Of a stretch of 30,550 nucleotides of DNA, positions 3,790 through 30,127 are shown one piece after another. Within the stretch, counting starts at the first letter, position 1, and each line of letters opens with the position of its first letter. The notes under the pieces were generated by a model. It did not search any database. It saw only the letters and a list, made by a program, of their open reading frames with translations, and was not told where the DNA came from. Both the position numbers and the translations under genes were made by a program. This DNA is from a virus. The stretch lies in the IMG/VR virus record IMGVR_UViG_3300035016_000024, positions 1-30,550 of that record. One strand, written 5' to 3'.

Positions 3790-4025
3790 GCCGGTCTCCA
3801 TGGCTTGCGGATGCAGATTGCCGGTCGGACCGTGTCCATTCCGGCGAAGCGGCGCCCCTGCGACCCGATCCGCTCAGCGCCATCGAGCGACCGTCTCGCC
3901 GACAGACTATTCCTGAGTCTCGGTCCGCCGTCCGTGTCGGCGATCCGGCCGCCCGCATCCAGCCGGAGGCGGCATGCCACGCTCAGACGTTGAGGATCTG
4001 CCGAGCGATTTCTCTCGCATGTTGC

Positions 4026-4048
4026 GCAACCGTTGGGCGTTCGGTTGC
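4026..4048. repeat. Inverted repeat upstream of the kinase gene
   Basis: Perfect 7-bp arms, GCAACCG and CGGTTGC, are separated by a 9-base spacer. The left arm overlaps a TTGCGCAA palindrome at 4022-4029. It lies in the 335-bp gene-free stretch (3790-4124) before the HWE kinase and overlaps the candidate -35 box. It could be an operator or a hairpin in a leader. Nothing else gene-like is visible in that stretch. Confidence 0.4.
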
Positions 4049-4073
4049 ACCTTCGCGCGGGCGGACCGAATAT
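4045..4073 (+). promoter_or_regulatory. Candidate promoter for the HWE kinase gene
   Basis: TTGCAC (4045-4050) and GAATAT (4068-4073) are spaced by 17 bases, about 50 bases upstream of the kinase ATG. AGGG at 4112-4115 supplies a ribosome binding site nine bases from that ATG. The -10 match is only moderate. A dedicated promoter would be needed because the gene opposes the surrounding late operon. Confidence 0.35.
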
Positions 4074-4124
4074 CTACGAGATGCATCGCAAACCGCGACG
4101 GACGCACCCGCAGGGAACACACCG

Positions 4125-6320
4125 ATGAATCCCTCACGGCCCGAGCCGACGACGGGCTCGGCCGCAGTCATCCCTTCCGGCGCCGAAGCGCGGGCCCCGG
4201 CCGGCGGTCTGCCGCGCCGGCCTGGCCTACGGGCACATCTGCTCGTGCTCGTCCTGGCCGTGCTGCTGCCCTCGCTCGCCTTCGGCGCTGGGGTCGCCTG
4301 GCATCTGGTCGAGAACTACCGTCGTGCCTTCGAGGAGCGCCTGACCGACACGGCGCGCGCGCTCGGCTTGGCCGTCGACAACGAGATCGAGACGCACTTC
4401 GCGGTCCTGACCGCGCTCGCCGCCTCACCCACGCTGGACGGCTGCGGCGGGGGCGCCACCGAAGATGGCGCCTGCGACCTCGGCGCCTTCGACGCCCACG
4501 CCCGGCGTGCCGCGGAGGCCCTCGGCACCGAGGTGATCCTGATCGGCCCCGACCTCCGCCAAGCCGTCAATACCAGCCTGCCCCGCGGCGTGCCGCTGCC
4601 CGTGACCGGCGCCGCCGAGGCCGCCCGCCGGGTGCTGGAGAGCGGAAAGCCGGAGGTCATCGATCTGGTGGTCGGGGCGGTGGCGCGACGGCCCGTCGCG
4701 GCCGTGCTCGCGCCCGTCCTGCGCGAGGGCCGCCGGGTCGGCGTGCTCGCGACGCGCCTCGATCCCGACCGCCTGCGCGGCATCCTGGCGGCGCAGACGA
4801 GCCGCAACGGAGAGGCGGGCGGCGGTATCTTCGCGATGCTCCTGGACGGGCGAACGACCGTGGCGGCCCGCTCGCGCGGCCATGACGACCTGGCAGGCCG
4901 GCCAGCCCCCGACTGGTACGCCCAGGCGGTCGCCGGACGCGGACGCGGTCTGGCGCACGGCCCCACGCTCGACGCCGGTGACGCCCTGGTCGCGTTTCAG
5001 AGGCTTTCCCGGGCGCCCGGCTGGACGCTGGTGGTCGCCGAGCCACTCGCCGCCTACCGCGCAAGCTGGCGCGGCCCCTTGCTGGGCCTCGCCGCCGGGG
5101 GCGCCGCTGCACTCGCGCTCGGACTCGCACTCGCGGTGGCGCTCGCGCGGCGCACGCTGCGGCCGGTGGCGGCGCTGGTGCGCCACGCGAAGGCCGTGGC
5201 CGCGGGCGCTGGCCGGGGGCCGGAAGCGCCGCCGGCCGTCGCCCCTGCCGACGTGGCCGAGTTCGAGGCGCTGCGGGTCGCGATCGAGGACGCCGAGGCG
5301 GCGCTGCGCGAGGGCGAGGACCGGCTGCGCCGGGCGCAGGAGGCGGGCGGCGTCGGTGCCTGGGAGTGGGACATCGCCTCGGGCCGGGTCCACTGGTCGG
5401 ACGGCTACTACCAGATCTGGGGCATCGACCCGGCCGAGCCGGCCTCCTACGAGGGCTTCCTGCGCCACGTCCTGCCCGAGGACCGGCCCGCCCTGGAGGC
5501 GGCGCTAGCCGAGGTGCTGCGCACCGGAGGACGCTGGCGGCACGAGTTCCGCATCCGCCGCCCGTCGGACGGCGCGCTCCGCTGGCTGGCGGGAGAGGGC
5601 GAGGTGGAGCGGGACGCCGCCACGGGACGGCCGATCCGGATGGCCGGCGTGAACCGCGATGTCACCGAACGGCGCCAGGGCGAGGAGCACCGGGCGCTCC
5701 TGATGCGCGAGCTCGTCCACCGCACCAAGAACATGCTGAACGTCGTCCAGGCTGCCGTCCGGCTGACGCCGAGAGACGATCCGGAGGCGTACGCCCGGGC
5801 GGTGGAGGGCCGGGTAGCGGCACTGGCGCGCGCGCACATCCTGCTGGCCGAAACGCGCTGGTCCGGTGCCGAGCTTCGGCCGCTCGCCGAGGCGGAGCTG
5901 GCCCCGTTCCTGCACGGCCCGCCCCCGGCGACCGGCGCCCCGCCGGTGGCCGAACTCGAGGGGCCACCGGTGGTGCTGGCGCCGGAGGCCGCGCAGGCGC
6001 TCTCGATGGCGCTGCACGAGCTGGCGACGAACGCGACCAAGCACGGAGCGCTGTCGGCACCGGGCGGGCGCGTCTCGGTGTCCTGGGGGGTGGACGCCGC
6101 CGCGGGGCTGCTGCGGCTTCGCTGGGTCGAGCGCGGCGGCCCTGTGCCGGCCGGGCCGCCGGCGCGGCGGGGCTTCGGGTCGCGCGTGGTCGAGGCGACG
6201 GTGCGCGACCAGCTCGGGGGCGCGGTGGAACGGCGGTGGGAGGCGCCCGGCCTGGTCTGCGAGCTCACCGCGCCGCTCGAGCGCGTGCTGGCGGGCGGGG
6301 CCGCACGCGCCGCGGCGTAG
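4125..6320 (+). CDS. Membrane-bound PAS-HWE sensor histidine kinase
   Basis: This 731-residue kinase starts at the ATG at 4125, behind AGGG (4112-4115). The frame is open further upstream, but that part has no kinase-like content. Order: cytoplasmic N-terminus, TM1 (about 37-60), a periplasmic Cache-like sensor region (about 60-315), TM2 (about 317-341), a HAMP-like linker, a PAS domain (about 403-515, with GAWEWDIASGRVHWSDGYY) and an HWE kinase module. Visible motifs are phospho-accepting H532 in ELVHRTKNMLNVVQA, the HWE-class N-box HELATNATKHG (H631, N636) and the diagnostic W-x-E (W667, E669). It opposes the phage late genes and sits between tail tube and tail chaperone. No receiver is adjacent; the nearest one is at 13.5 kb. 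The ligand is unknown. Confidence 0.93.
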   Translation: MNPSRPEPTTGSAAVIPSGAEARAPAGGLPRRPGLRAHLLVLVLAVLLPSLAFGAGVAWHLVENYRRAFEERLTDTARALGLAVDNEIETHFAVLTALAASPTLDGCGGGATEDGACDLGAFDAHARRAAEALGTEVILIGPDLRQAVNTSLPRGVPLPVTGAAEAARRVLESGKPEVIDLVVGAVARRPVAAVLAPVLREGRRVGVLATRLDPDRLRGILAAQTSRNGEAGGGIFAMLLDGRTTVAARSRGHDDLAGRPAPDWYAQAVAGRGRGLAHGPTLDAGDALVAFQRLSRAPGWTLVVAEPLAAYRASWRGPLLGLAAGGAAALALGLALAVALARRTLRPVAALVRHAKAVAAGAGRGPEAPPAVAPADVAEFEALRVAIEDAEAALREGEDRLRRAQEAGGVGAWEWDIASGRVHWSDGYYQIWGIDPAEPASYEGFLRHVLPEDRPALEAALAEVLRTGGRWRHEFRIRRPSDGALRWLAGEGEVERDAATGRPIRMAGVNRDVTERRQGEEHRALLMRELVHRTKNMLNVVQAAVRLTPRDDPEAYARAVEGRVAALARAHILLAETRWSGAELRPLAEAELAPFLHGPPPATGAPPVAELEGPPVVLAPEAAQALSMALHELATNATKHGALSAPGGRVSVSWGVDAAAGLLRLRWVERGGPVPAGPPARRGFGSRVVEATVRDQLGGAVERRWEAPGLVCELTAPLERVLAGGAARAAA

Positions 6321-9351: not shown

Positions 9352-9752
9352 GCCGGGTGGACCCCGCGATCGAGTTCGAAGTGCGGCCCGTCGCGGAAGC
9401 TCGACCAGTCGCCACCCCAGAGGATCGCAACGCGCAGCTCGGACGCCGCGGCCTTCATGGCGGTGGCGAGCCCCCGATAGAGCGGCCAATCCCAGCGGAT
9501 CTCGCCATGCTCAGGGACACCGTCGCCGTCGTCCAGCCAGTAGGCGAGGTCCACGGCGTGGCCGGTCAGGTGGCGGCTGTCGATCGTGCGCGAGGCGCCG
9601 ATTGCCACGAGCCTGGCCTGGCGCTCGCTCGAGCGGACGCCCTCGATCACGATGAACGGGGCTGTTCCCCGAGCCCGCTCGACGACGCGCACCAGGTCCG
9701 GGTGCACGCCGGCAAGGCGCTCGCGATCGCGCCGGAGAAGCGCGGCCGTCAC
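9348..9752 (-). CDS. Endolysin, peptidase M15 type
   Basis: This 134-residue enzyme is predicted to cleave peptidoglycan peptide cross-bridges or stems for lysis or infection. It starts at the GTG at 9752, overlapping the DUF2190 stop. The M15 signature is complete: SRHLTGHAVDLAYW gives zinc ligands H61 and D68, and DGPHFEL gives H124. The early segment IVIEGVRSSERQARLVAIGA matches the substrate-binding region of M15 endopeptidases. No signal peptide is present, so a holin would be needed for release; a holin-like gene lies 0.3 kb downstream. The length is near the lower end for phage L-Ala-D-Glu endopeptidases (about 130-150 residues). Confidence 0.9.
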   Translation of the reverse strand: MTAALLRRDRERLAGVHPDLVRVVERARGTAPFIVIEGVRSSERQARLVAIGASRTIDSRHLTGHAVDLAYWLDDGDGVPEHGEIRWDWPLYRGLATAMKAAASELRVAILWGGDWSSFRDGPHFELDRGVHPA

Positions 9753-10096
9753 GCCCCGCTCGCCGGCACGCGCTGTAGCACCACCCGCACCGTGGCATCC
9801 GCCGCGAGCGCGGCCCCGGTGGCGATGCCGACCTGGAAGTTGCTCGTCGCCGTCGTGGTGATGCGGCGGTTTGTGTCGTCCCAGAACACCCGAGCGCCGG
9901 CGGTGATGGCGAGCGCGGGCTGCTTGGTGAGGTCGAACACGCCCGCCGTCTGCACCTCAATGGTGGCGTTCTGGGCGCCGTCGACCGCGGCGACGCCGAA
10001 CAGCGCGCCGACGAGGACGCCCTGACCAGAGGTGACGCCGCTTGCATAGGGCACGGCGACGGCCAGGCTGTCGCCCGGCTGGATGTAGTTGCGCAT
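9749..10096 (-). CDS. DUF2190 family phage protein (possible capsid decoration)
   Basis: This 115-residue protein starts with ATG at 10096. It opens MRNYIQPGDSLAVAVPYASG, followed by VTSGQGVLVGALFGVAAVDG and the strand motif ATIEVQTAGVFDLTK. Next comes GARVFWDDTNRRITTTATSN, and it ends in VRVVLQRVPASGA. This is the characteristic DUF2190 pattern: a single beta-rich domain of about 110 residues encoded next to the major capsid gene. Family members are regarded as virion or head-decoration candidates, so that role is inferred. A strong hairpin separates it from the upstream capsid gene. Its stop overlaps the endolysin GTG. Confidence 0.85.
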   Translation of the reverse strand: MRNYIQPGDSLAVAVPYASGVTSGQGVLVGALFGVAAVDGAQNATIEVQTAGVFDLTKQPALAITAGARVFWDDTNRRITTTATSNFQVGIATGAALAADATVRVVLQRVPASGA

Positions 10097-10179: not shown

Positions 10180-12210
10180 TCAGGTGCCCGGGTTGAACCA
10201 GGCGCCGCGCCAGTCGATGGCGCCGACGCCGAAGTCGAAGATCACGCTGACCTCGACGCCGTCGACGCCCGAGACGGGGCCGGTGGTGACCTGCGGCCCC
10301 TCCGCCCCGTTCAGGTAGCCGTAGACGTAGACCGGCGTGGTCGGCGGCTCGGCGAAGAGATACCAGCGGTTCGCCGGGATCAGCGGCTCCACCACCGGCT
10401 GCAGCAGCCCGACATAGGGGTTCACCGCGCCCGAGCTGCCCGGCGTGATGGCGGCGGTGAGCTTGAGCGCCGGGAGCTCGAGCGCCGCGCCCACCAGCAC
10501 GCGCATGCTGCGGCCGAGCGAGATCGGCAGGCCGTCGAGCGTGCGCTGCTTCATGATCGCCTCGCGGCCTTTGGCGATGTTCGCCTCGTCGAGCGCGGTG
10601 CCGGCCGCCGCCTTGTTCGCCCGCGCTGCCGCCGTCGCAAAGACCGGTGCGGCGCCGGTGGTGAGCGTCGGGCCGTCGCCGTTGGCCAGGTTCAGCAAGG
10701 CATAGGCGGTGGCGTTCTCGAAGTCGGCCACGCGCCGGCCGATCATGGCGGCGAAGTCGGTGAAGGCGCCGAGGTCGTCGTTCACCAGCATCTGCCGCGT
10801 CACCCGGATCCGGCGGGCGAAGGTCTGCAGCAGGACGATCTCCTGGCTCTCGGACATGGTGCCGGCCTGGATCTCGCCGTTCTCCAGCAGCGGCTGCAGG
10901 ACGGGGAAGTCGCCGATGCGCAGATGCCGGTGCGGCTTGAAGTCGCGGAAGTCGCGCCGGAGGAAGAGCTGGCGGAAGGTCGGCGCGGCCGGCTGGTAGG
11001 CGGCGAGCAGCATCTTGTTGGCCGCGGCCGAGAGCAGCGCCGGGAAGTCGGAGGTGGTGTGAAAGGCGCGCTCGGCCAGGCGCACCGGATCGCGCGGGAC
11101 GTGGGTCTCACCGTGCAGGGTCAGCAGCTCGCGGACCATGTCGGAGGGCCGCCAGCCCATGAACTCGGCGTGGCGGCCATTCCCGGCCGGCTGGTAGCCC
11201 GGCATGGCGCGGGCCGCGATCGCCTCGGCCATGGCGTCGAGGATCTCGGTCCGTGGGGGCGCGCCATGCGCGGCGGGGTTGGCCGGCACGGAGGGTCGGG
11301 GCGCGTGGCGCACCAGGGCGTCGAACAGGGCGCGGCGGGTGTCGTCGGGGGACCAGCCGCGCTCGACGGCCTCGGCGCGCAGGGCGGCGACACGGTCGGC
11401 CGGCAGGAGGGCGCGGGCGGCCTCGACGGCGGTGTCGATACCGGCGATGCGGCCCCGCTCGGCACGGGTGGCCTCAGCGGCGGGATCGGGCTGGGGGCTG
11501 GCCGGCGCGGCGGGCGCGGGCTCGGGCGTGGTGGTCACGGTGGTCTCCTGGGGCGGGGTGGCGGGCGGCGCAGGCGGCTCCGGCGTCGTCTCGGGCATGG
11601 GCGGGTCCTCGTGCGGCAGGGCGGGTTCGATGGCGGGCGTGGGGGCGCCCTGGTCCCCCTGCGCGCGAACAGCGGCGTCGCGGTCCACCGGCAGCGGCAC
11701 GACGGAGATCTCGAAGGGCTCCCAATCCACCGCGCGGTGGACGGTGGTGCCAGTGGCGGGGTCAGGCCGCGGCTCATAACGATGCACCCGGTAGCCGACG
11801 CTGACGGCGCGCAGTGTGCCGTCGGCGATGCGCTGCCAGACCGGCTCGACGTCGGCCGCGCTGCTGAACTGCAGCGTCGCGTAGCCGCGGCCTCGCTCGA
11901 TGCGGGCAGCGGTGACGCGGCCGAGCACGTCGCGGGCATCCATGCTGCGATGGGTGTTCAGCACTGGGGCGTTGCCCGAGCGCAGCGCGTCCATGCGCAC
12001 CGCGTTCGGCGACATCTCCAGTTCCTCGGTGATCAGGCCGAGGGCGGGCACGAAGTTGCGGGCGCGCGCGCCGGTGGACCACACCACCTCGACGGTGCGC
12101 GCGGCGCGATCGACGGTGGCGGGAGCGGTAGTTGCGCGATGCGCGACAATCGGCACAACAGCGGACGCCGGCGCGGGGTTGGCCCCGCCCGGGTCGTTCA
12201 AGCATTCCAT
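10180..12210 (-). CDS. HK97-type prohead protease fused to major capsid protein
   Basis: This 676-residue fusion starts at the ATG at 12210, with AGGA eight bases upstream. Residues about 30-185 are an S78 prohead protease: H87 in NAPVLNTHRSMDARDVLGRV and S137 in RAVSVGYRV are the expected catalytic His and Ser. Residues about 186-245 form a Pro/Thr-rich linker. Residues about 250-330 are a charged helical, scaffold-like stretch. The remainder is a capsid domain (DFPALLSAAANKMLLAAYQP, FRQLFLRRDFRDFKPHRHLR, GWRYL-like segment NRWYLFAEPPTTPVYVYGYL). Protease, scaffold and capsid are usually separate genes in HK97-like phages, though fusions are known. An internal ATG at 11598 with its own GAGGA site could yield a protease-free form of 472 residues. 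Confidence 0.88.
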   Translation of the reverse strand: MECLNDPGGANPAPASAVVPIVAHRATTAPATVDRAARTVEVVWSTGARARNFVPALGLITEELEMSPNAVRMDALRSGNAPVLNTHRSMDARDVLGRVTAARIERGRGYATLQFSSAADVEPVWQRIADGTLRAVSVGYRVHRYEPRPDPATGTTVHRAVDWEPFEISVVPLPVDRDAAVRAQGDQGAPTPAIEPALPHEDPPMPETTPEPPAPPATPPQETTVTTTPEPAPAAPASPQPDPAAEATRAERGRIAGIDTAVEAARALLPADRVAALRAEAVERGWSPDDTRRALFDALVRHAPRPSVPANPAAHGAPPRTEILDAMAEAIAARAMPGYQPAGNGRHAEFMGWRPSDMVRELLTLHGETHVPRDPVRLAERAFHTTSDFPALLSAAANKMLLAAYQPAAPTFRQLFLRRDFRDFKPHRHLRIGDFPVLQPLLENGEIQAGTMSESQEIVLLQTFARRIRVTRQMLVNDDLGAFTDFAAMIGRRVADFENATAYALLNLANGDGPTLTTGAAPVFATAAARANKAAAGTALDEANIAKGREAIMKQRTLDGLPISLGRSMRVLVGAALELPALKLTAAITPGSSGAVNPYVGLLQPVVEPLIPANRWYLFAEPPTTPVYVYGYLNGAEGPQVTTGPVSGVDGVEVSVIFDFGVGAIDWRGAWFNPGT

Positions 12211-12265
12211 GAGAGCGTTCCTATGTGTGGCCCTGCGCTCGGAAACGGGGCCGGGCGGCCTTCGC

Positions 12266-13354
12266 CTAGGGCGCGCCGTTCGCTGCCGGGAACCGCATGG
12301 TCCACGCTGCCCCGCGGCCCGCATCAGGCGTCGTGGCCTCGGGCCGTCCAGTCGTCGTCTCAAGCCGACCGCCCAGCTGGGCAGCCAGGGCACGAGCGAG
12401 GCGCGTCCCGAGCCCGGTGCCTTTCGGCGGCGCCCCGGGGTCGATCCCCACGCCGTCGTCCTCGACCGACAACTCGAACTCGGCGCCATTGCGATGGAAG
12501 CCGATCGCGACGGATCCGGCGCGGTCGTCAGGAAAGGCATACTTCAGGGAGTTCGCGACCAGCTCGTTGACGATGAGGCCGAGCGCGATCGCGCGGCCGA
12601 CCGGCAGTTGGTGCGACTCGGCTTTCACCCGAAGCGCGATGGGTCGCAGGCCGATGGCCACCTCCCTGAGATCCTCGCCCAGGCCCTCCAGAAAGGCGCG
12701 GCTGTCGAGCGAGGCGTCGGTGTGCCAATGCTGCTCAAGACGACCGTTCACGCGGGCGAGCGCCTGGATCCGGGCCGCCGCCTCGCCGAGCGCCTCGCGC
12801 GCCGAGACGTCGTCCTTCGCGGCCGCGATCTGCAGATGCAGCGTCGCCGCGAGCCGCTGGAGGTCGTTGCGCCCTCGGTGGATCGCCTCGCGGAGCAGCG
12901 TTTCCTTCTCGGCATCACTTGATGCGAGCCTCTCGTTGGCCTCCGCAAGCGCGGCAGCGTCCGCCGCGATGCGCTCGCGCGACCTCGCGACCGTGGCGAA
13001 GGCGACGTGCAGCGCCTCCATAAGGAAAGCGATGAACAGCGTGATCGCAAGATAGATGGCCGCGCCGATCACATCGAACGGGTTGTCGAACCCCAGACGC
13101 CCAAGCGGGGGCACAAACAGCCAGACCGCGAGAGCACTCGAGAGGATCGCGGCATATACGCCCGTTCCCCGATCGAACAGGACACCCGTGATCACCACGA
13201 CGGGGAAGAACAGGAGGAACGGGTAGCCAGGGTTCCACCCGAAGATGAGCACACGTAGAGCCACTGCCAACACGACGAGGGCCGTTGTCGCCAAGTAGCG
13301 TGCCCAGGCGGGAAAGCCACGTGTGGTGGCGGTGTAGGCGAAGAGGCGCTCCAT
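12266..13354 (-). CDS. DUF4118/HisKA_2-type sensor histidine kinase
   Basis: This 362-residue kinase begins at the ATG at 13354. The N-terminus has about four membrane segments (residues about 18-38, 45-60, 65-83 and 94-118) of the DUF4118/KdpD-like type, with almost no periplasmic sensor domain. A coiled-coil linker (about 122-155) leads to the dimerisation helix LLREAIHRGRNDLQRLAA, with candidate phospho-acceptor H159. The ATPase domain has N-box NELVANSLKYAF (N263-F274), G1 DDGVGI (about 299-304) and G2 GTGLG (312-316). It is transcribed away from a single-domain receiver gene 173 bases off. The pair is wedged between the portal and capsid genes. The stop is 55 bases upstream of the capsid fusion ATG. 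The signal sensed is unknown. Confidence 0.92.
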   Translation of the reverse strand: MERLFAYTATTRGFPAWARYLATTALVVLAVALRVLIFGWNPGYPFLLFFPVVVITGVLFDRGTGVYAAILSSALAVWLFVPPLGRLGFDNPFDVIGAAIYLAITLFIAFLMEALHVAFATVARSRERIAADAAALAEANERLASSDAEKETLLREAIHRGRNDLQRLAATLHLQIAAAKDDVSAREALGEAAARIQALARVNGRLEQHWHTDASLDSRAFLEGLGEDLREVAIGLRPIALRVKAESHQLPVGRAIALGLIVNELVANSLKYAFPDDRAGSVAIGFHRNGAEFELSVEDDGVGIDPGAPPKGTGLGTRLARALAAQLGGRLETTTGRPEATTPDAGRGAAWTMRFPAANGAP

Positions 13355-13401
13355 CGACCCCGCCTAGCAGACCCGCCGCAATGTGTCGGTCCAACCGCGA
13401 T

Positions 13402-13430
13402 CGCAAATGCGTGAAGTTGAAAATATTCAA
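13402..13430. promoter_or_regulatory. Two adjacent palindromes in the divergent kinase/receiver promoter region
   Basis: CGCAAATGCG (13402-13411, arms CGCA/TGCG) and TTGAAAATATTCAA (13417-13430, arms TTGAA/TTCAA) lie back to back in the 172-bp gap between the divergent kinase (start 13354) and receiver (start 13527). The gap is clearly more AT-rich than its surroundings. They are candidate operators or promoter elements; no regulator is identified. Confidence 0.4.
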
Positions 13431-13526
13431 ACACGCGCGAGACTCGTGAGATTATTCGCTTGCCAGCGTCGCTGCGGGGGCTTGGGGCCGGGCGGTTGTG
13501 CAGCAGCGAGGCGGGCGGAAGCGGAA

Positions 13527-13997
13527 ATGCGGGTGCTGCTGGCGGAAGACGAAGGGATCATCGCGCTGCTCCCCCAGGATGTTCTGGAGGCGGCGGGCCA
13601 TACCGTGGTCGCGGCATCGGATGGCCAAGCCGCGGTCGAGCTTGCCGCCCGCGACGGTCCGTTCGACGCGCTGGTGACCGATCTCAACATGCCCCGGCTT
13701 GAGGGAGGTGAGGTCATCCGTCGTCTCCGGGCGGAGACGCCATCGCTGCCTGTCGTGGTTCTGACCGGCAGTCCACCTCGGGAAGGCGTCTCGGTTCTGG
13801 CGCGCGCTGGAGAGCCGCCGGTGGTGCTGCTTCTCAAGCCGGTCGCCCCTGAAGACCTGCTGCGCGGGCTCGACCGCGCCGTCGCTGCTACAGCGATGGA
13901 GGCGATCTCAGAGCAGCCGAACCCACCGGGAGAGAGGCAGGCTGGTGGACTTCAGCACGCCACGCCATCGGCGAGCCCGGCACCGGGGCCGATCTGA
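13527..13997 (+). CDS. Single-domain response regulator (CheY-like)
   Basis: This 156-residue protein consists of one receiver domain plus a Pro/Ser-rich tail (about 125-156) with no output domain. I choose the ATG at 13527 because the receiver fold starts there (MRVLLAEDEG) and a purine-rich GGAAGCGGAA precedes it. The key residues are present: acidic D8/E9, phospho-acceptor D52 in LVTDLNMPRLEG, T80 in VVVLTG, and K104 in LLLKPV. It is divergent from the adjacent membrane kinase, the obvious phosphodonor. Without an output domain it probably acts as a phosphate shuttle or sink, or by binding a protein partner. It points into the end of the portal operon. Confidence 0.9.
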   Translation: MRVLLAEDEGIIALLPQDVLEAAGHTVVAASDGQAAVELAARDGPFDALVTDLNMPRLEGGEVIRRLRAETPSLPVVVLTGSPPREGVSVLARAGEPPVVLLLKPVAPEDLLRGLDRAVAATAMEAISEQPNPPGERQAGGLQHATPSASPAPGPI

Positions 13998-14015
13998 CGG
14001 ATCCACAGACAGAGT

Positions 14016-14108
14016 TCAGCTTCGACCTGCTGAGGCTTCACGGCACTCCTTCTGTACGCTCGTGATGCCGAGCACGTACTCGGCCAGGCTGTAGCCGCCG
14101 ACCGTCAT
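14016..14108 (-). CDS. Short ORF coupled to the original portal stop
   Basis: An ATG at 14108 overlaps the TGA that would end an unshifted portal frame (ATGA) and encodes about 30 residues, beginning MTVGGYSLAEYVLGITSVQK. It stops at 14016, next to the end of the convergent response regulator gene. The coupled start suggests a genuine phage gene. It may be intact and tiny, or the first codons of a longer gene cut by the kinase/receiver insertion. I do not recognise it. Confidence 0.4.
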   Translation of the reverse strand: MTVGGYSLAEYVLGITSVQKECREASAGRS

Positions 14109-15603
14109 GCCTGTGCTGCGGAGACGTCGGAACGCGGGGGCGCCGCGGCGCCGGTGGCCGCGATCTCGATGGCGGCGAGCTGCGCCGCGTCCTGCGCAGC
14201 GCCAGATTTCGCGACGCGACGCGGCGCGGATCGGTGTCGAGCGAGATGCCGGCCTCGTCGAGGAGGGCGTTGGCCTCGCGGATCATCTCCACCGCGGCGC
14301 GGAAGTCGTAGCCGAAGGCGCCGACCGCCTCGGGCTGCGGCACGAAGCCGGCGCGCACCTGGGCGATCAGGGCGGTGGTGTCCTTCAGCGGGTCGATCAT
14401 CTCGTGCGCCGGTGGGACGTGGCTGACGCCGTCCGGCATGCCCGCTCCCCACAAGCCGAGCAGCGCGCCCTGCTGGTGGAAGCGGTCCGCGATCGGGCGG
14501 ACGAGCATGGGGATGAGCATGCCGTATTGGACCTGCTCGCAGAGGCGGCGGAACTCGATCTTGCCGGCGCGGAGCGAGGAGTAGTTCGCCTGCGTGAGGT
14601 CGCCGGAGACCTGGTCATAGGTGAGGCCCGCACCGACCGCGGCGGCCTCGAGAGCGCGGCGAGCGAAGGCGGCGTGCGACCCGCCGCCCGAGGGGTTCAC
14701 CACCTCCACGCTGCCCATTCCGCGGCGGTAGAGGATCATCCCCGGCTCGAAGCTCTCGACCGTGCGGCCCTGGGCGTCCCGCAGCAGGCCAGAGGCGGGG
14801 CCGGTCATGGCCTCGACGCCCTCCTCCGTCACCACCGCGGCGAGGCAGGCCTCGATCTTCGCCTTCATCAGCAGCGCGGCCTCGTAATCACTGAGATCGC
14901 GCAGCCGCAGCAGCACCGGCGCCAGCCAGGAGACGTCACGCAGCTGACCAGGGCGGCGCTTGCGATAGATGTGCAGCACGTCGCCGGCTGGGATGCGCTC
15001 GCTGCTGAGCCAGGAGGCACCCGGCACAGTCCAGGCGGCGCCCGGATGCACGCGATGCAGCCAGTAGCCGATCGGTTCGCCGGCCGCGCCGAGGGCGATG
15101 CCCTGGATGGTGGCGGCACCCGCCACCATGCCGTTGCGGGCGGTGTCGAGGTGATCGCTCTCCAGCACCTGCAGCCGAAGGCCGATCGGATTGGCGGACG
15201 ACGGCGGTACCATCAGGAAGCGGACGAAGCACTCGCCGCTCTCGACAACGGTGCGCATGACCAGCGCCTGCAGGCCATAGAGATCGAGCCGTCCCTCGGC
15301 GTCGCAGCCGGTGCCTTCGGCCCAGCGATGCCAGGCACGGCTGTGCGCCGCATCGGGCCAGCGCGTGGTGATGCCGGCGCCGACCGCGTTGCCGGTCCAG
15401 AGATCGACGATGCGGCTGGCATAGGGGTCGTTGCGCACGGCGTCGCGGGCGCGGCGCGCCACTGTCGGCGCGGCCATACCGACCTCGGCCGTGGCGCTGC
15501 CGCCGGACGGCGCCCAGGCGGAGGCGCGTCCGTCCTGTGCCGCGGCATAGCCACGCAGGGCGTGCCAGGCGTCACGGACGCGGCGGGTCATGCGCTCGAT
15601 CAC
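14038..15603 (-). CDS. Phage portal protein, lambda type, with frameshifted C-terminus
   Basis: The portal forms the dodecameric gate through which DNA is packaged. The start is GTG at 15603, overlapping the gpW-like stop (GTGA). The frame reads 521 residues. The first ~463 match lambda-family portals: ARDAVRNDPYASRIVDLWTG, GECFVRFLMVP, LQVLESDHLDT, AGDVLHIYRKRRPGQLRDVS and YDQVSGDLTQANYSSLRAG. After ISLDTDPRRVA the sequence turns into an Arg/Pro-rich tail. At 14211-14220 GTCGC is tandemly duplicated. With one copy removed the frame continues VAKSGAAQDAAQLAAIEIAA to a TGA at 14105, giving 497 residues. The present tail is therefore probably a mutation product. The core is intact, so function may persist. 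Confidence 0.9.
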   Translation of the reverse strand: MIERMTRRVRDAWHALRGYAAAQDGRASAWAPSGGSATAEVGMAAPTVARRARDAVRNDPYASRIVDLWTGNAVGAGITTRWPDAAHSRAWHRWAEGTGCDAEGRLDLYGLQALVMRTVVESGECFVRFLMVPPSSANPIGLRLQVLESDHLDTARNGMVAGAATIQGIALGAAGEPIGYWLHRVHPGAAWTVPGASWLSSERIPAGDVLHIYRKRRPGQLRDVSWLAPVLLRLRDLSDYEAALLMKAKIEACLAAVVTEEGVEAMTGPASGLLRDAQGRTVESFEPGMILYRRGMGSVEVVNPSGGGSHAAFARRALEAAAVGAGLTYDQVSGDLTQANYSSLRAGKIEFRRLCEQVQYGMLIPMLVRPIADRFHQQGALLGLWGAGMPDGVSHVPPAHEMIDPLKDTTALIAQVRAGFVPQPEAVGAFGYDFRAAVEMIREANALLDEAGISLDTDPRRVASRNLALRRTRRSSPPSRSRPPAPRRPRVPTSPQHRHDGRRLQPGRVRARHHERTEGVP

Positions 15604-15849: not shown

Positions 15850-17820
15850 TCAGCGAAGCCAGCCGCTGCGCGGCGCTAGCCAGCCGCGCGGGCGACGGCT
15901 ATCGGGCGCGGCCTGCGGTGGTGCCGGGTGGGCGACATTCCCACCGGCGGGAACATCGCCTGCCGGCAGCGACAGCGCATCCGCCATCCGCGCCCAGCGC
16001 CCGTCGCCCCAGCCGTCCATCCCCAGCGCGGCCGCAGCCGCGCGGGCATAGACCCGGCAGTCCAGCGCCTCGTTCCGCTCGCGCGTCTTGACCCATTCCA
16101 GTCGCCGAAAGCCGTTCCGCCCAGCGCGGGCCACGAGCTGCTCCGCAGTGATCTGCCGGCAGAACTCCTCGCCGGCCGCGTGGACGGGCAGGTGCACATA
16201 GCCCGGCGGGAATGGGTCCCCGCTCTCCTCCGTGGGCGGGTCGAGCTTCAGCCAGCCGTAGGTCTCGGCCTTCAGAAAGGACGAGCCCACCGGCCAGACC
16301 TTGAGTCCGCCGAGCTTTCGGCCGTTGCGCCGTACCTCCGTCGCTGCCGGCTGGCCGACCGCGGCACGCAGCCCGTCCTGGCCCTTCACGGCGATGGCGC
16401 GGCCCGCGCCGGCCCGCCGCACGAAGGCGTAGACCTCCGCCGTGGTCATGCCGTCGCCGCTGTCGATCGCCGCCATCGCCACCGGCAGACGGTGCCCGCT
16501 CGCATGCCGCCACGTCTCGCCGAGCAGCAGCCGCAGATCCTCCCAGACCTGGGCCTCAAAGGGATTGCCAGCGAGGACGCGGTGCTCGACCAGCCAGGAC
16601 TGGCGATCCTGCCCCCAGGCCCAGATGCTGGCCTCGAGCCGATCCCGCTGCACGTCGACGCCGGCCGTCAGCAGCAGCCCGCCCATCGGCACGGTGCCCG
16701 CGGGCCAGTGCTCGCGGCGATCGTAGAGCCGCTGCCAGTCGGGTGCCTCGCCGGCCTCCTGCCAGGTCTCGCCCAGCACGGTGTTCCGGAAGGTCTTGAT
16801 CGCGCGGTCGTCGCCCTGGGAGGCAAGCCAGAGCCTGGCGATCTCCGACCAGGGCATCCAGCCGGGCGGGGAGTAGAGCGCCGAGATGTGGAAGCCGATT
16901 GCGTGCGGATCTGTCGCCGTGGCGGTGGCCCGCCATTCTCCGGCGGCCAGCATCGCCGCCTTGTGCTGCTCGCCGACCGCCGCGTCGCAATCGTCACAGA
17001 GATACCGCGCCGTCTCCGGCTGGCCCTCGTCCCAGACCAGCCGCTCGAAGCGAAGATGCTGGCGGTGGCCGCAGTGGGGACACGGCACGAAGTAGCGCCG
17101 CTGGTCGGTCGCCAGGTACTCGCGCTCGATCCGCGACAGGCCGGCGATGGTGGGCGTGCTGACGAGCAGCATCTTGCGCCGCCAGCCGAAGGTGCGCGCC
17201 CGCGCCTCCGCCAGCGCGATCGGGTCGCCCTCGCCCTCGACGTCGCCCGGATAGGCGTCGATCTCGTCGAGGAACAGGAACCGCGCCGACATCGAGCGCA
17301 GCCCGACCGCGCTGTTCGCGCCGGTCATCACCAGCTGCCCGCCGGGGAACTCCTTCGAGAGCTGGCGATTGCCGCTGTCCCGCGAGCGGGCCGGCGCGAC
17401 CCGCTCCTGGATCGCCGGCGTCTCCTCGACCAGCGGATCGATGCGCTGGTCGGAGAAGCGCTTGGCCAGCTCGGTCGTCGGCTGCACCGCGAGCATCGGC
17501 CCGGGTGCGTGGTGGATGACATAGCCGATCCAGTTGTTGCCGCACTCGGTGCCGCCGACCTGGGCCCCTTTCATAAATACGACGCGCCGCGCCGGATGGG
17601 CCGGCGACAGCGCATCCATGATCTCGCGCAGATAGGGCGTGCGCGCGGTGCGCCACGGCCCTGGCTCGGCGGAGCCGCGGCTGCCGAGCAGGCGATGCCG
17701 GTCGGCCCATTCGGACACAAGCAGCGCCGGTTCGGGCGCCATGCCGTCGCGCCAGGCCTGCAGGATCTCGGCGTCGCCGTCGAAGCGGCCGAGTTCCTCC
17801 AGCAGATGCTCGCCTGCCAT
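15850..17820 (-). CDS. Terminase large subunit, GpA family
   Basis: This 656-residue packaging motor ATPase and nuclease cuts concatemers and pumps DNA into the prohead. The start at 17820 overlaps the small subunit stop (TGATG). The N-terminal ATPase has the Walker A-like VFMKGAQVGGTECGNN (about 82-96) and Walker B FLFLDEIDAYP (D185, E186). STPTIAGLSRIEREY (221-235) is the coupling region. A zinc-ribbon-like insert carries C247, C250, C275 and C278 (CPHC and CDDC). The C-terminal nuclease region starts near GGLLLTAGVDVQRDRLEASI. Length and motif order are typical of lambda gpA-like terminases, implying cos-type or related packaging. Confidence 0.95.
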   Translation of the reverse strand: MAGEHLLEELGRFDGDAEILQAWRDGMAPEPALLVSEWADRHRLLGSRGSAEPGPWRTARTPYLREIMDALSPAHPARRVVFMKGAQVGGTECGNNWIGYVIHHAPGPMLAVQPTTELAKRFSDQRIDPLVEETPAIQERVAPARSRDSGNRQLSKEFPGGQLVMTGANSAVGLRSMSARFLFLDEIDAYPGDVEGEGDPIALAEARARTFGWRRKMLLVSTPTIAGLSRIEREYLATDQRRYFVPCPHCGHRQHLRFERLVWDEGQPETARYLCDDCDAAVGEQHKAAMLAAGEWRATATATDPHAIGFHISALYSPPGWMPWSEIARLWLASQGDDRAIKTFRNTVLGETWQEAGEAPDWQRLYDRREHWPAGTVPMGGLLLTAGVDVQRDRLEASIWAWGQDRQSWLVEHRVLAGNPFEAQVWEDLRLLLGETWRHASGHRLPVAMAAIDSGDGMTTAEVYAFVRRAGAGRAIAVKGQDGLRAAVGQPAATEVRRNGRKLGGLKVWPVGSSFLKAETYGWLKLDPPTEESGDPFPPGYVHLPVHAAGEEFCRQITAEQLVARAGRNGFRRLEWVKTRERNEALDCRVYARAAAAALGMDGWGDGRWARMADALSLPAGDVPAGGNVAHPAPPQAAPDSRRPRGWLAPRSGWLR

Positions 17821-18383
17821 CAGCCGACGCTCACCCGCACATCGTGCCGCGCGGCGAGATGCTGCCGAAGGCGTGCGTCCATCATGGTCTGCAGCCGGTG
17901 CGCGTCGACGCCGAGCTCGGCGGCCATTTCGGCGGCCACCCTGGCCGGCCAGGCAAGGATGGCGTCGCGCTCCTCCTTGGCGAGGCGGTGCACAAGCAGG
18001 AGCGCGCGGGCCTTGTCGACCAGCTTGCCCTTGCGCTCGTCGAGCCGCAGCCGGCGCTCCTGCGCCTTCAGGACCTCGTTGGCCGTGCGCGCGTCGTGGA
18101 ACGTGTTCTGCGCAGCACGCGGCAGTGGATCAGGCACAGGTGCTGCGATCGGCGCCGATACCGGCCGCGGTAGTGCCGGTGTGATAAAGGCAGCAGTCTT
18201 TCGCAACGGATCGCTGCTCTCGGCAAGCCGCGCCCGCACCTTCTCGACATCCCGGGCGCCATCCGCCTCCGGCGCGATGCGGCCGGCGCGCTGCGCCTTC
18301 TGCAGCGCCGTGTGGGAGACGCCAAGGCGGCGCGCCACCTCACGCTGCGAGGCCACGCGGCCCGGCTGCGCGGAGGCGATCAT
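17820..18383 (-). CDS. Terminase small subunit (Nu1-like)
   Basis: This 187-residue protein, encoded directly upstream of and coupled to the large subunit, is predicted to recognise the packaging site. It begins with ATG at 18383. An N-terminal winged-helix/HTH (SQREVARRLGVSHTALQKAQ, residues about 12-31, then RAGRIAPEADGARDVEKVRA) resembles excisionase/Nu1-type DNA binding domains. A Pro-rich linker (about 65-92) is followed by a helical domain (TANEVLKAQERRLRLDERKG, LLLVHRLAKEERDAILAWPA) that would mediate assembly with the large subunit. The N-terminal domain is strikingly similar to that of the small HTH protein at 29526-29909. Confidence 0.88.
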   Translation of the reverse strand: MIASAQPGRVASQREVARRLGVSHTALQKAQRAGRIAPEADGARDVEKVRARLAESSDPLRKTAAFITPALPRPVSAPIAAPVPDPLPRAAQNTFHDARTANEVLKAQERRLRLDERKGKLVDKARALLLVHRLAKEERDAILAWPARVAAEMAAELGVDAHRLQTMMDARLRQHLAARHDVRVSVG

Positions 18384-23298: not shown

Positions 23299-23578
23299 CT
23301 CGCGCTCACGCGCTACTGGCAACGTGGCAACCTCGATGCAATGCCAGACGCTAGCGAAGTGGCGCGCGCTTGCTCCCCGCATACAGCAGGCCCAGGAAGG
23401 ACCCTGCGGCTCGCGAGCCAATCATTCGTTTGTCTGGCTCAGTGGCTCGCTCGCCACGGCCGAGTCTGGCGCATCAACTCGACGTAGCGTGTTCATAGAC
23501 CGGCTGATTCGCGCGCCGCTACAGGGTGAATTGTAACAGCGCATCCGAGACGCAGACCGAGGGATTGCCGAGCACTGC

Positions 23579-23902
23579 TCAGGCACGCTCCGCGGCGTCG
23601 CGTGTCGCGACCAGCGCAGCCAGCGTGGCCTGCGCCTGCCTCACCGCGGCCGGCTCGCTGGTGTCGATGTCGCAGAGCTGCTCCTCCGCATCGCCGACAC
23701 CGATAGCGATCTGCTCGCGCAGCTCGTCGAGCCACGCCTTCGCTTCAGAGGGATCAGCTTCCGGCGCGCGTAGCCATTCGGCGACGATCACCTCCACCTC
23801 GCGCGCCATGCGGGGCGGCTGCACGCCCTTCGCGGCGAGCGCCATCAAGCGGACGATGGCGGAGTCGACCGGACGCATGCGTGGCTGCCTCCGAGCGGCC
23901 AT
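23579..23902 (-). CDS. Small phage protein, unknown function
   Basis: This 107-residue protein starts at the ATG at 23902, with GGAG eight bases upstream. It starts MAARRQPRMRPVDSAIVRLM. A helical stretch follows (VQPPRMAREVEVIVAEWLRA), then EAKAWLDELREQIAIGVGDA and a long Ala/Glu helix to the end. There is no signal peptide, membrane segment or catalytic motif. It is a basic N-terminal tail plus acidic helical body, compatible with a DNA- or protein-binding phage accessory factor. Its position between cargo genes is unusual, but it has the coding style of the phage small genes. Confidence 0.6.
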   Translation of the reverse strand: MAARRQPRMRPVDSAIVRLMALAAKGVQPPRMAREVEVIVAEWLRAPEADPSEAKAWLDELREQIAIGVGDAEEQLCDIDTSEPAAVRQAQATLAALVATRDAAERA

Positions 23903-23978
23903 GGCTTCAGCTCCTATTGTTTCCCGCGCCTCATAGCGTGTTCTTGTCTTGTTCTCCAAGAGGGCGGTATGGTCGGGC

Positions 23979-24194
23979 ATGCCCGACGGCGCTCCGCCAC
24001 GCACCCCGCCGCCATGGCTGAGCGCTGCTGCGCTGGCGGCTGGCAGGGCTGCCCGGCGTCCGCGTGGCGCTTTTCCGCCGTGGACGGGCGACGCAGATAG
24101 CAGGGCGGTGCGCGAAGCCATCCTGGCGCACCACCCCGCCTTGCCGCTCACGATGATTGCCGAGGCAGTAGCTTACGTCCTCGACTCAGGGTGA
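23979..24194 (+). CDS. Possible small hypothetical protein
   Basis: A plus-strand frame of 71 residues from the ATG at 23979 (another ATG at 23949) fills the gap between two minus-strand genes. It begins MPDGAPPRTPPPWLSAAAL and ends VREAILAHHPALPLTMIAEA. The start is Pro/Ala-rich and the end helical. The ribosome binding site is weak. It could be a real small gene or a chance open frame in GC-rich DNA. Confidence 0.3.
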   Translation: MPDGAPPRTPPPWLSAAALAAGRAARRPRGAFPPWTGDADSRAVREAILAHHPALPLTMIAEAVAYVLDSG

Positions 24195-24202
24195 TGCCGG
24201 AG

Positions 24203-25096
24203 TCACCCGCCGAGCTCGGTCTCGATGCATGCGGCATAGCCCGGATGGTGCGTCATCGCGCCAGCCGAGATCATCGACGCTGCGAGCCTGTCGAGCGCCT
24301 CTGGCGGCAGCCGGGTGCTCTCCGCCCACAGGCCGAGCTGGCGATACCGGGCAACCGCGCGCTGCAGGCGGTGCGGCGCCACATCCGCAAAGCGGGGCGC
24401 CAGCGTCGCCGCGAGTGCCTCCTCGCTCGCCGCGTGAAGCCAGGTGAGCGCGTCGCCGAGCCCGCGCACGGTATTGCCGAACGCGGCGCGCTTTGCGGCA
24501 ATGCGCGGCACGACAGCGTAGAGTGCGCTGTAGGCAGTGGGTCCCCTGGCCGCCGCGGCATACCAGACCGCAGCGCCGTCCTCCTCCAGCGTCGCCGCAT
24601 GCGGCTCGAACAGCAGGACGGCGTCCACCCTTCCGGTCCGCACGGCCGCCGCGCCCTCGCCCATCGGCATGAAGGCTATGCCCGGCATCGCGGCGGGATT
24701 GAGCCCGGCCAGGCGCAGGTCATGCTGCAGGCACCACCAGGGAGTGGGAACCTCTGACGGGATGGCCAGACGCATCCCTTCCAGCTCGGCGAGCTTGAAC
24801 CCCGGCCGCTCGCCCATGCCGAGCAGCAGGAAGGGGTCGCGCATCACCGCGGCGCCGAAGCTGCGGAGCGTGCTCTCCGGATCGCGGCTGCGTTCCAGCA
24901 TGGGCCGCATCGGGCCACTCCAGGCCAGGTCGGCGCTGCCGTCCTTGAGCCGCGCCGCCGCCGCGTCAGGCGTTCCCGCCGTCTCGAGCGTTATGTCGAC
25001 GCCCCGGGCGGCGAAGCAGCCGCGTTCGAGCGCCACGTAGTAGGGCGCGTAGAAGATGGCCCGGAATGGCTCGATTAGGATGAGGCGGTCCGCCAT
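24203..25096 (-). CDS. NMT1/ThiY-type substrate-binding protein without signal peptide
   Basis: This 297-residue protein is of the NMT1/SsuA-like class that binds small nitrogen or sulfur compounds for ABC uptake. The ATG at 25096 lies six bases past the TctC-like gene's stop, so the two form an operon. It opens MADRLILIEPFRAIFYAPYY and VALERGCFAARGVDITLETA, the classic NMT1 start. Later motifs are GSADLAWSGPMRPM and GRVDAVLLFEPHAATLEEDG. There is no signal peptide, so it may stay cytosolic, unlike ordinary binding proteins. Thi5-like enzymes of this fold are cytosolic, but their CCCFC motif is absent. Permease and ATPase genes are not present. It is metabolic cargo inside the phage region. 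Confidence 0.85.
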   Translation of the reverse strand: MADRLILIEPFRAIFYAPYYVALERGCFAARGVDITLETAGTPDAAAARLKDGSADLAWSGPMRPMLERSRDPESTLRSFGAAVMRDPFLLLGMGERPGFKLAELEGMRLAIPSEVPTPWWCLQHDLRLAGLNPAAMPGIAFMPMGEGAAAVRTGRVDAVLLFEPHAATLEEDGAAVWYAAAARGPTAYSALYAVVPRIAAKRAAFGNTVRGLGDALTWLHAASEEALAATLAPRFADVAPHRLQRAVARYRQLGLWAESTRLPPEALDRLAASMISAGAMTHHPGYAACIETELGG

Positions 25097-25101
25097 TTGG
25101 C

Positions 25102-26076
25102 TCAGCCCGGACGTGCGCCGGTGCGCTGCAGAATCGGGATCCACTTCTCGGCCTCGGCGCGGACGAAGCGGCGCGCCTCCGTGGTGTCGCCCGGCATCGG
25201 ATCAACGCCTCGCTCTGTAAAGCTTTGTTGCACGGCGGGATCGGCAAGCACCTTCAGCACCGCCGCCGACAGGGTGGCGATGATGGCCTCCGGCGTGCGG
25301 GCCGGCGCGTAGAGGGCCTGGAAGGACGAGGCGCGATAGCCCGCGATCCCGACCTCCTCCAGCGTCGGGAGGTCGGGCAACATGCGCGACCGCCGCGTCG
25401 TGGTGACGGCCAGCGCGCGCGCCTTGCCCTCCCGCACAAAGGGGGCGAGCAGCGTCTGGCTGTCGATCATCATGTCCACACGTCCGGCGATGAAGTCCGT
25501 CACCGCCGCTGGCGTGCCGCGGTACGTCACCACCGTGAAGTCCACATTCGCCAGGCTCTTCAGGAGCTCGCCGGCCAGGTGCGATGCGGCGCCCACGCCG
25601 GTGGTGGCAAAGGTCGCCTCCCCGTTGCGGCTGCGCAGCCAGGTGAGCAGCGAGGGCATGTCGTTGGCTGGCACCGAAGGATGGACGCAGACGAGGAAGC
25701 TCTGATCCCCGACCAGGGCCACCGGCGTCAGGTCGGCAACGCTGTCGAAGCCGACGTCGGGATAGAGGGCTGGGATCACCGGATGCGCTGCACCGTTCAG
25801 CAGCAGCGTGTGCCCGTCCGGGGCGGCGCGCGCCACGACACGCGCCCCGATGGTGGAGCCCGCGCCTGGCAGGTTCTCGATCACGACGGTTTGGCCGAGC
25901 TCGCGCCCCAATGGCTCCGCGATGAGCCGGGCCACGACGTCGATAATGCCGCCCGCAGCGAAGGGTACCACGATGCGCACAGGGCGGTCTGGGTAACGCG
26001 TCTGCGCGCGCGTCGTCGTGGCCGCAAAGGGGAGCGCACCGGCGGCGGTGAGCATTGCGCGGCGTGTTGTCATCAT
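25102..26076 (-). CDS. Bug/TctC family tripartite tricarboxylate transporter receptor
   Basis: This 324-residue periplasmic solute receptor carries a Tat signal (TTRRAMLTAAGALPFAATTT; R5-R6, cleavage near residue 24-26). The mature protein begins with the family hallmark YPDRPVRIVVPFAAGGIIDV. It continues with NLPGAGSTIGARVVARAAPD, LAGELLKSLANVDFTVVTYR and the C-terminal ILQRTGARPG. Such proteins deliver carboxylates or other small acids to TctAB-type permeases, none of which is encoded here. Bug receptors are hugely expanded in Burkholderiales and Acetobacteraceae chromosomes but are not phage genes. It starts at ATGATG (26076) with a strong GGAGGGA site. Ligand unknown. Confidence 0.93.
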   Translation of the reverse strand: MMTTRRAMLTAAGALPFAATTTRAQTRYPDRPVRIVVPFAAGGIIDVVARLIAEPLGRELGQTVVIENLPGAGSTIGARVVARAAPDGHTLLLNGAAHPVIPALYPDVGFDSVADLTPVALVGDQSFLVCVHPSVPANDMPSLLTWLRSRNGEATFATTGVGAASHLAGELLKSLANVDFTVVTYRGTPAAVTDFIAGRVDMMIDSQTLLAPFVREGKARALAVTTTRRSRMLPDLPTLEEVGIAGYRASSFQALYAPARTPEAIIATLSAAVLKVLADPAVQQSFTERGVDPMPGDTTEARRFVRAEAEKWIPILQRTGARPG

Positions 26077-26213
26077 CGTGGTATCCCTCCGGCTTAATCG
26101 CAGAGTACGGGCCCAAGCTGCCTCAGAACGCTGTCGGCTCCGTTGGCGCGAGAAGGAGCGTAGACGTCATCCGGAAGCGATGGCAATGCCAGGACCGGTC
26201 GGGCACATCGCGC

Positions 26214-29529: not shown

Positions 29530-29909
29530 TCGCCTGCCTTCTCCTGCGCGGCGATGGCCGCATCGCAGGCGCGCTCAAGGCGAAGGATCTCGGGATAGAG
29601 CGCCGCGATTTGCCGTGCTGCCTGTTCGAGGGCCTGGCGAGCGGTCTCGAGCTCCCGGTGGATGCGGCGTGCCGGACCAACGATGTCCGCATCCACCTTC
29701 GCGATGTGGTGGGCAGGCTTGGCCCAGGGTCCCCGCGAGCCATAGCGGATCCGCGGCTTCGGGGTGGCGAGACTGGCCCGCACCTTCTCAACATCCCAGG
29801 AGCCATCCGGCTCCCGCGCGATGCGCCCGGCGCGCTCCGCCTTTCGGAGTGCGGTATCCGACACACCCACCTGCCGTGCCGCGGCGCGCGTTGACGCTGT
29901 GCTCTTCAT
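29526..29909 (-). CDS. Small HTH protein, paralogue of the terminase small subunit DNA-binding domain
   Basis: This 127-residue protein begins at the ATG at 29909, overlapping the stop of the DUF6511-like gene (ATGA); a longer start is not needed. The N-terminal HTH is STRAAARQVGVSDTALRKAE then RAGRIAREPDGSWDVEKVRA, followed by a basic linker (PRIRYGSRGPWAKPAHHIAK) and a long coiled coil (residues about 75-127). The HTH and the GRI..DG..DVEKVRA strand segment closely parallel the terminase small subunit at 17.8-18.4 kb. It lies between two replication-operon genes and is coupled to the primase, so it may act as an origin-binding or loading protein. That is inference. Confidence 0.72.
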   Translation of the reverse strand: MKSTASTRAAARQVGVSDTALRKAERAGRIAREPDGSWDVEKVRASLATPKPRIRYGSRGPWAKPAHHIAKVDADIVGPARRIHRELETARQALEQAARQIAALYPEILRLERACDAAIAAQEKAGE

Positions 29910-30127
29910 CGCTGCGTCCCGCTGCATGTCGCTGAAAAGGTCCGCCTCCCGTCGAGACGGCGGACGAGTTCGTCCTGGTAGGCGGTGACGACGACCTCGA
30001 GCAGCGTCAGCCACTCGACCTCGGTGAGGGTCGCGAGATCGGTCTTGCCGATGCTCTCCAGATACTCGCCCGCCGTCGGGCTGGCTGCCGCGATGGCGGC
30101 CTGCTCGTGCTCGTCTGGGTCAACCAT
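29906..30127 (-). CDS. Small DUF6511-like phage protein
   Basis: This 73-residue acidic helical protein starts at the ATG at 30127, overlapping the end of the truncated LysR frame by eight bases. It contains MVDPDEHEQAAIAAASPTAG, then EYLESIGKTDLATLTEVEWL and TLLEVVVTAYQDELVRRLDG. The SIGKTDLATL-x-x-x-EW pattern recalls DUF6511 proteins of alphaproteobacterial phages; the family name is from memory. It is the first gene of the replication operon and has no obvious ribosome binding site or own promoter, since host LysR sequence abuts it. It may depend on the LysR transcript. Confidence 0.68.
   Translation of the reverse strand: MVDPDEHEQAAIAAASPTAGEYLESIGKTDLATLTEVEWLTLLEVVVTAYQDELVRRLDGRRTFSATCSGTQR

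Follow-up and report, generated by a model that had tools for sequence, protein, structure and literature searches.

A histidine kinase gene and a single-domain receiver gene lodged between the portal and capsid genes of a temperate phage are probably moron (lysogenic-conversion) cargo, that is, a host-derived (Acetobacteraceae) two-component module occupying an accessory slot. The stretch of DNA analyzed here (the window) is a 30,550-base IMG/VR virus record, which may be a fragment; it is an Acetobacteraceae-type prophage with a Roseomonas-like bacterium as host. The slot is variable among related prophages, both inserted genes are intact, and the kinase belongs to a chromosomal clade. Most likely the signaling module was captured or re-paired and acts on the host rather than within a conserved phage control circuit. 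The captured module is real and intact, ordinary in kind, and a new instance of an uncommon type of cargo.

A Kinase and a Receiver within the Structural Block

The structural genes of the window all lie on the minus strand, among them those for the tape measure protein (PF20155, 928..3096), tail tube (PF18906, 6463..7419), head decoration protein (9749-10096), a prohead protease/major capsid fusion (PF25209, phrog_4523; 10180..12207), a lambda-family portal (PF05136 by Pfam, 14038..15603), and the terminase large subunit (15850-17820); a primase gene follows at 27208-29529. The kinase and receiver genes stand between the portal and the protease/capsid gene, where the original prediction had placed them. 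Elsewhere, positions 23343-26212 form a third accessory stretch, in which genes for NMT1-like and TctC (Bug-type) periplasmic binding proteins are flanked by the phage methyltransferase and DUF6456/primase genes; the related prophage L074 has only ~1.1 kb there. An open reading frame at 29526-30014 includes a paralogue-like stretch (29776-29889) of the N-terminal part of the terminase small subunit (17820-18383).

The kinase gene (12266..13354, minus strand) encodes a 362-aa membrane histidine kinase of DUF4118-HisKA_2-HATPase_c architecture. Its Pfam domains score above cut-off (DUF4118 E = 1.2e-13; HisKA_2, PF07568, E = 4.7e-8, 33.4 bits against a cut-off of 22.3; HATPase_c E = 5.3e-12, 46.6 bits against 26.4), and H159, N263/N268, D299, and G314/G316 are invariant in an alignment with relatives. 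The best NCBIfam match is PhyK, far below threshold (equivalog NF051872, 86.7 bits against a cut-off of 750). On the plus strand, 13527..13997 encodes a 156-aa single-domain response regulator. Pfam recognizes Response_reg (PF00072; E = 2.2e-16, 60.4 bits against a cut-off of 30.2) and no output domain, and the acidic pocket E7/D8, the phosphoacceptor D52, T80, and K104 are kept in an alignment of relatives. The protein ends in a proline-rich C-terminal tail of 35-40 aa that is absent from most aligned relatives. Here too the best NCBIfam match, CpdR, is far below threshold (equivalog NF046022, 55.7 bits against 180). The receiver carries the sole Response_reg domain among the 20 main open reading frames scanned. 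The analysis thus upholds the earlier description of a DUF4118/HisKA_2 membrane kinase and a divergent, output-less receiver with intact motifs, with one correction: the most likely start of the receiver is ATG 13527 rather than GTG 13383, because all relatives align from MRVLLAEDE.

With this start, the two genes diverge from an intergenic region of 172 bp (13355..13526), which we searched with repeat and promoter scans. The prediction of a shared, palindrome-bearing promoter region did not hold up. The region contains one weak, imperfect inverted repeat (13462-13516; 14 nt arms, 86% match, 27-nt gap), and the surrounding 2.15 kb has 24 comparable pairs, a frequent kind of repeat in this GC-rich sequence. 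A consensus scan of the cassette returned no sigma-70-like promoter or terminator, although host promoters may not fit that consensus, and no EcfG-type site (GGAAC-N15-19-CGTT) occurs within it. PhyR, NepR, and EcfG were not recognized in the window. PADLOC, consulted for an anti-phage defense role, gave no match for either kinase or for the receiver.

The Portal-Capsid Junction Is a Cargo Slot

Alignment to the related prophage L071 sets the breakpoints of the inserted cassette at 12208..14018. Its GC content is 0.68 against 0.72 in the rest of the window, a modest deviation at about the 8th percentile of windows of the same size. Directly beyond the portal-side breakpoint lies a 30-codon remnant (MTVGGYSLAEYVLGITSVQKECREASAGRS*; 14019..14108, minus strand) of a 497-aa gene whose relatives are L071:15311-16804 and L073:3082-4575; the remnant begins at ATG 14108, and the cassette stands in place of the remainder. 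Two prophages of Falsiroseomonas selenitidurans are syntenic with the window and mostly share 70-90% identity with it across the structural genes. Both carry the 497-aa gene at the portal-capsid junction; the kinases and the receiver of the window are missing from both. The 497-aa protein (L071:15311-16804 and 28 further relatives) gives a weak E1_FCCH match and is possibly a structural or decoration protein.

We surveyed the junction by scanning IMG/VR and genomes for capsid and portal genes, which, after de-duplication, left 137 relatives in which both genes could be reached; several of these contigs may share one population, and the count is not one of 137 independent events. Counting a junction of <250 bp as empty, 88/137 are empty, 29/137 contain the 497-aa gene, and 20/137 contain other cargo, including a secreted cupin, an HNH endonuclease, TerB-like and DUF2726 proteins, an AraC-type regulator, and an extensin-like protein. 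Given this heterogeneous content, the portal-capsid junction is a cargo slot. Empty junctions, those with the 497-aa gene, and the one with the cassette have their flanks in common. The survey, with its exact flanks, finds one mark of a moron: additional genes set between a conserved pair of phage genes and variable among close relatives. The claim that the cassette interrupts the portal-capsid junction was right as to position, but in this phage family that junction serves as an accessory slot, and the cassette stands in place of most of a 497-aa gene. We also looked for direct or inverted repeats at the cassette borders as a trace of transposition; the borders share a single 8-mer, a level of sharing that chance would account for in sequence this rich in GC. 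A prophage of the Falsiroseomonas group has, directly behind the portal gene, an open reading frame with eight RTX calcium-binding repeat matches (L227:3146-4315).

The comparative search proposed with the original prediction found no conserved cassette: neither the kinase nor the receiver of the window occurs at any of the 137 related junctions, and no HisKA_2 kinase scores above cut-off in 50 longer related records. This lack of conservation in other prophages looks like cargo capture, into a preferred slot rather than a random place.

A Second Slot Holds the HWE Kinase

About 6 kb from the cassette, as predicted, lies a PAS_3/HWE histidine kinase gene (plus strand) in an open reading frame that opens with TTG at 3990 (3990-6320) and has a likely start at ATG 4125 (4125..6320). 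The window therefore does hold two kinases and one receiver. Comparison with L071, L073, and L163 places this gene in a second accessory slot, bordered by the tail tube gene on one side and the tail chaperone/tape measure genes on the other. Tail tube and tape measure genes are separated by 0.62-0.71 kb in five relatives and by 1.4-5.7 kb in twenty. In the tail block of a Falsiroseomonas prophage, the slot (L071:5375-8533) contains genes for MerR, MerT, a MerP-like HMA protein, and a MerA-like reductase; in L073, a prophage in the same genome, it contains an HTH-like open reading frame, a 900-aa N6 DNA methyltransferase (MmeI/BREX-like), and a PIN-domain protein (L073:10626-14259).

HWE kinases are found in two other prophages. 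L163, the only one of the 50 longer related records with an HWE kinase above cut-off, has a kinase 60% identical to that of the window; its gene, like the one in the window, sits behind the tube gene in antiparallel orientation. In L227 an HWE kinase gene lies just upstream of the portal gene. The stretches read of these two prophages contain no matching receiver. Kinases thus recur at low frequency as cargo of this prophage family, and the two in the window occupy separate slots.

Origin of the Kinase and Receiver

Among 150 Acetobacteraceae-family genomes, the kinases closest to that of the cassette are chromosomal and 51-58% identical, and the window kinase nests within an Acetobacteraceae chromosomal clade with four of them (L278-L281; support 99/96). 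In two of these four sampled relatives (L279 and L280), a single-domain receiver gene lies directly downstream of the kinase gene; the upstream neighbor, read by eye, is a glutathione synthetase gene. Signaling from kinase to receiver in the window is plausible, because this kinase clade adjoins single-domain receivers in two host chromosomes. The receivers of L279 and L280 form a clade of their own (support 100/100), whereas the window receiver belongs to a different, widespread chromosomal subfamily with relatives in 60/120 Acetobacteraceae genomes. At least two members of that subfamily (L242 and L245) sit behind a membrane protein that by eye resembles a kinase of another type. The exact pairing of the window occurs at no other sampled locus. 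Capture of a whole chromosomal kinase-receiver operon was considered and is weakened by the difference in receiver subfamily.

In phages such kinases are rare: only three of 50,697 phage records have a similar one, the best match being in Paracoccus phage Pyei1. IMG/VR yielded three more full-length DUF4118-HisKA_2 kinases (L066, L270, and L271), on stretches with no match to the structural proteins or receiver of the window. Two unannotated records labeled as Enterococcus and Listeria phages (OR846652.1 and OR847367.1, 12 kb and 3 kb) match a HisKA_2 kinase at 26-27% identity, which is odd for these hosts, and may be mislabeled fragments. A literature search returned, for the terms used, no paper on histidine kinases encoded by phages or on kinases of Roseomonas prophages.

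Possible Action and Alternative Explanations

As cargo, the module would have its own expression in the lysogen, separate from that of the late operon. Its DUF4118 membrane region would sense a signal, the cue being either membrane-borne or cytoplasmic, and the HisKA_2/HATPase core would autophosphorylate at H159 and pass the phosphoryl group to D52 of the adjacent receiver. The phosphorylated receiver may then act on host signaling proteins by protein contact or phosphotransfer, and the stress or envelope response of lysogens might change as a result. In this reading the HWE kinase would be a second, independent cargo gene in its own slot rather than a designed second input. Some observations count against a moron: the kinase gene lies on the late-gene strand and could be co-read with the late genes, and the consensus scan found no promoter or terminator for independent expression. 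Simple capture also has to contend with a receiver subfamily unlike that of L279 and L280 and with the modest GC deviation.

The original prediction went further and proposed an undescribed prophage-borne phosphorelay, for example a phosphate source or sink for host stress or cell-cycle signaling. In the form of a dedicated phage relay, both kinases would feed the one receiver, which would act in this way on those host pathways or else on prophage induction and late genes. The part that stands is a signaling module on a prophage; neither the joining of two kinases to one receiver nor control of late genes found support. Rhodobacter gene-transfer-agent production, cited in its favor, is controlled through the host's CckA-ChpT-CtrA pathway and offers an analogy only. 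The motifs of both kinases and of the receiver are intact, the best NCBIfam matches of the cassette, however far below threshold, are PhyK and CpdR, and HWE/HisKA2 kinases of Caulobacter and Sphingomonas converge on promiscuous single-domain receivers such as MrrA and SdrG (PMC5964349, PMC5898713), all of which would suit a dedicated relay. Yet the pair is absent from the related junctions and its HisKA_2 class from the longer records, the other two prophages with HWE kinases lack a matching receiver in the stretch read, and the two kinases occupy independent cargo slots that each hold unrelated cargo in relatives. Nor is the receiver recognizable as a hub of the MrrA/SdrG type: the motif PFXFATG[G/Y] of FATGUY single-domain receivers (PMC5964349) is absent and LPVVVLTGS is present instead. 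We consider a dedicated phage phosphorelay unlikely. It is also quite unlikely that cargo from the two slots has come to work as one phosphorelay, with the DUF4118/HisKA_2 and HWE kinases acting on the phage receiver to rewire host general stress or cell-cycle signaling and possibly the choice between lysis and lysogeny.

Other features raise the question of whether the insert functions at all. In a prophage remnant, accessory DNA could have replaced a phage gene and the genes could now be drifting, as suggested by the truncation of the 497-aa gene to 30 codons, by a 5-bp tandem duplication (CGACG/CGTCG, ~14211-14220) that throws the C-terminal tail of the portal protein out of frame, and by a 30.5-kb record, possibly a fragment, with no integrase or lysis gene among the main open reading frames scanned. 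However, the reading frames of the kinase, receiver, HWE kinase, terminase, capsid, tube, and tape measure genes are open and conserved, the 497-aa gene is wholly absent in 88/137 relatives so that its loss need not matter, and the frameshift is confined to a portal tail whose extreme end varies across relatives. Decay therefore has a small though by no means negligible chance of being the right account. An assembly artifact joining a chromosomal two-component fragment to a phage contig would fit the single record, the somewhat lower GC of the cassette, and the finding of no second contig with its junction. It is nonetheless very improbable: the breakpoints lie precisely within a slot whose content varies across 137 relatives, at the remnant of a phage-family gene, and the phage genes run on in register to either side, so that a chimera would have had to hit both borders.

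Cargo capture, the reading we prefer, places the window in a widespread and little-described prophage family of Roseomonas-like bacteria with at least two fixed cargo slots in the structural block, whose cargo spans sensor kinases as well as genes for metal resistance and DNA modification. An active pair would supply lysogens with a new input to host signaling, which would be an under-documented form of lysogenic conversion.

Comparison with Known Systems

Like the morons of lambdoid and related temperate phages, the extra genes of this slot stand between conserved structural genes, occur in some relatives but not in most, and are heterogeneous and cell-like; unlike them, the cassette consists of a histidine kinase with a receiver, and the consensus scan gave it no promoter or terminator of its own. 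The chromosomal loci L279 and L280 share the DUF4118-HisKA_2 kinase clade (56-57% identity) and an adjoining stand-alone receiver, but there the two genes are co-directional, whereas those of the window diverge, and the receiver comes from another subfamily. Alphaproteobacterial HWE/HisKA2 kinases commonly feed single-domain receivers in stress signaling (PMC5964349, PMC5898713), and the PhyK/LovK and Pak-type kinases of the general stress response with SdrG/MrrA resemble the window in combining the HisKA_2/HWE class with a stand-alone receiver; they differ in that the window has no FATGUY motif, no recognized PhyR, NepR, or EcfG, and a kinase below the PhyK cut-off. The GAF-HisKA_2 kinase pyei1_p30 of Paracoccus phage vB_PyeM_Pyei1 has a GAF rather than a DUF4118 sensor, no receiver annotated nearby, and a different slot, but like the kinase described here it is a HisKA_2 kinase in a temperate phage, encoded just upstream of the terminase genes.
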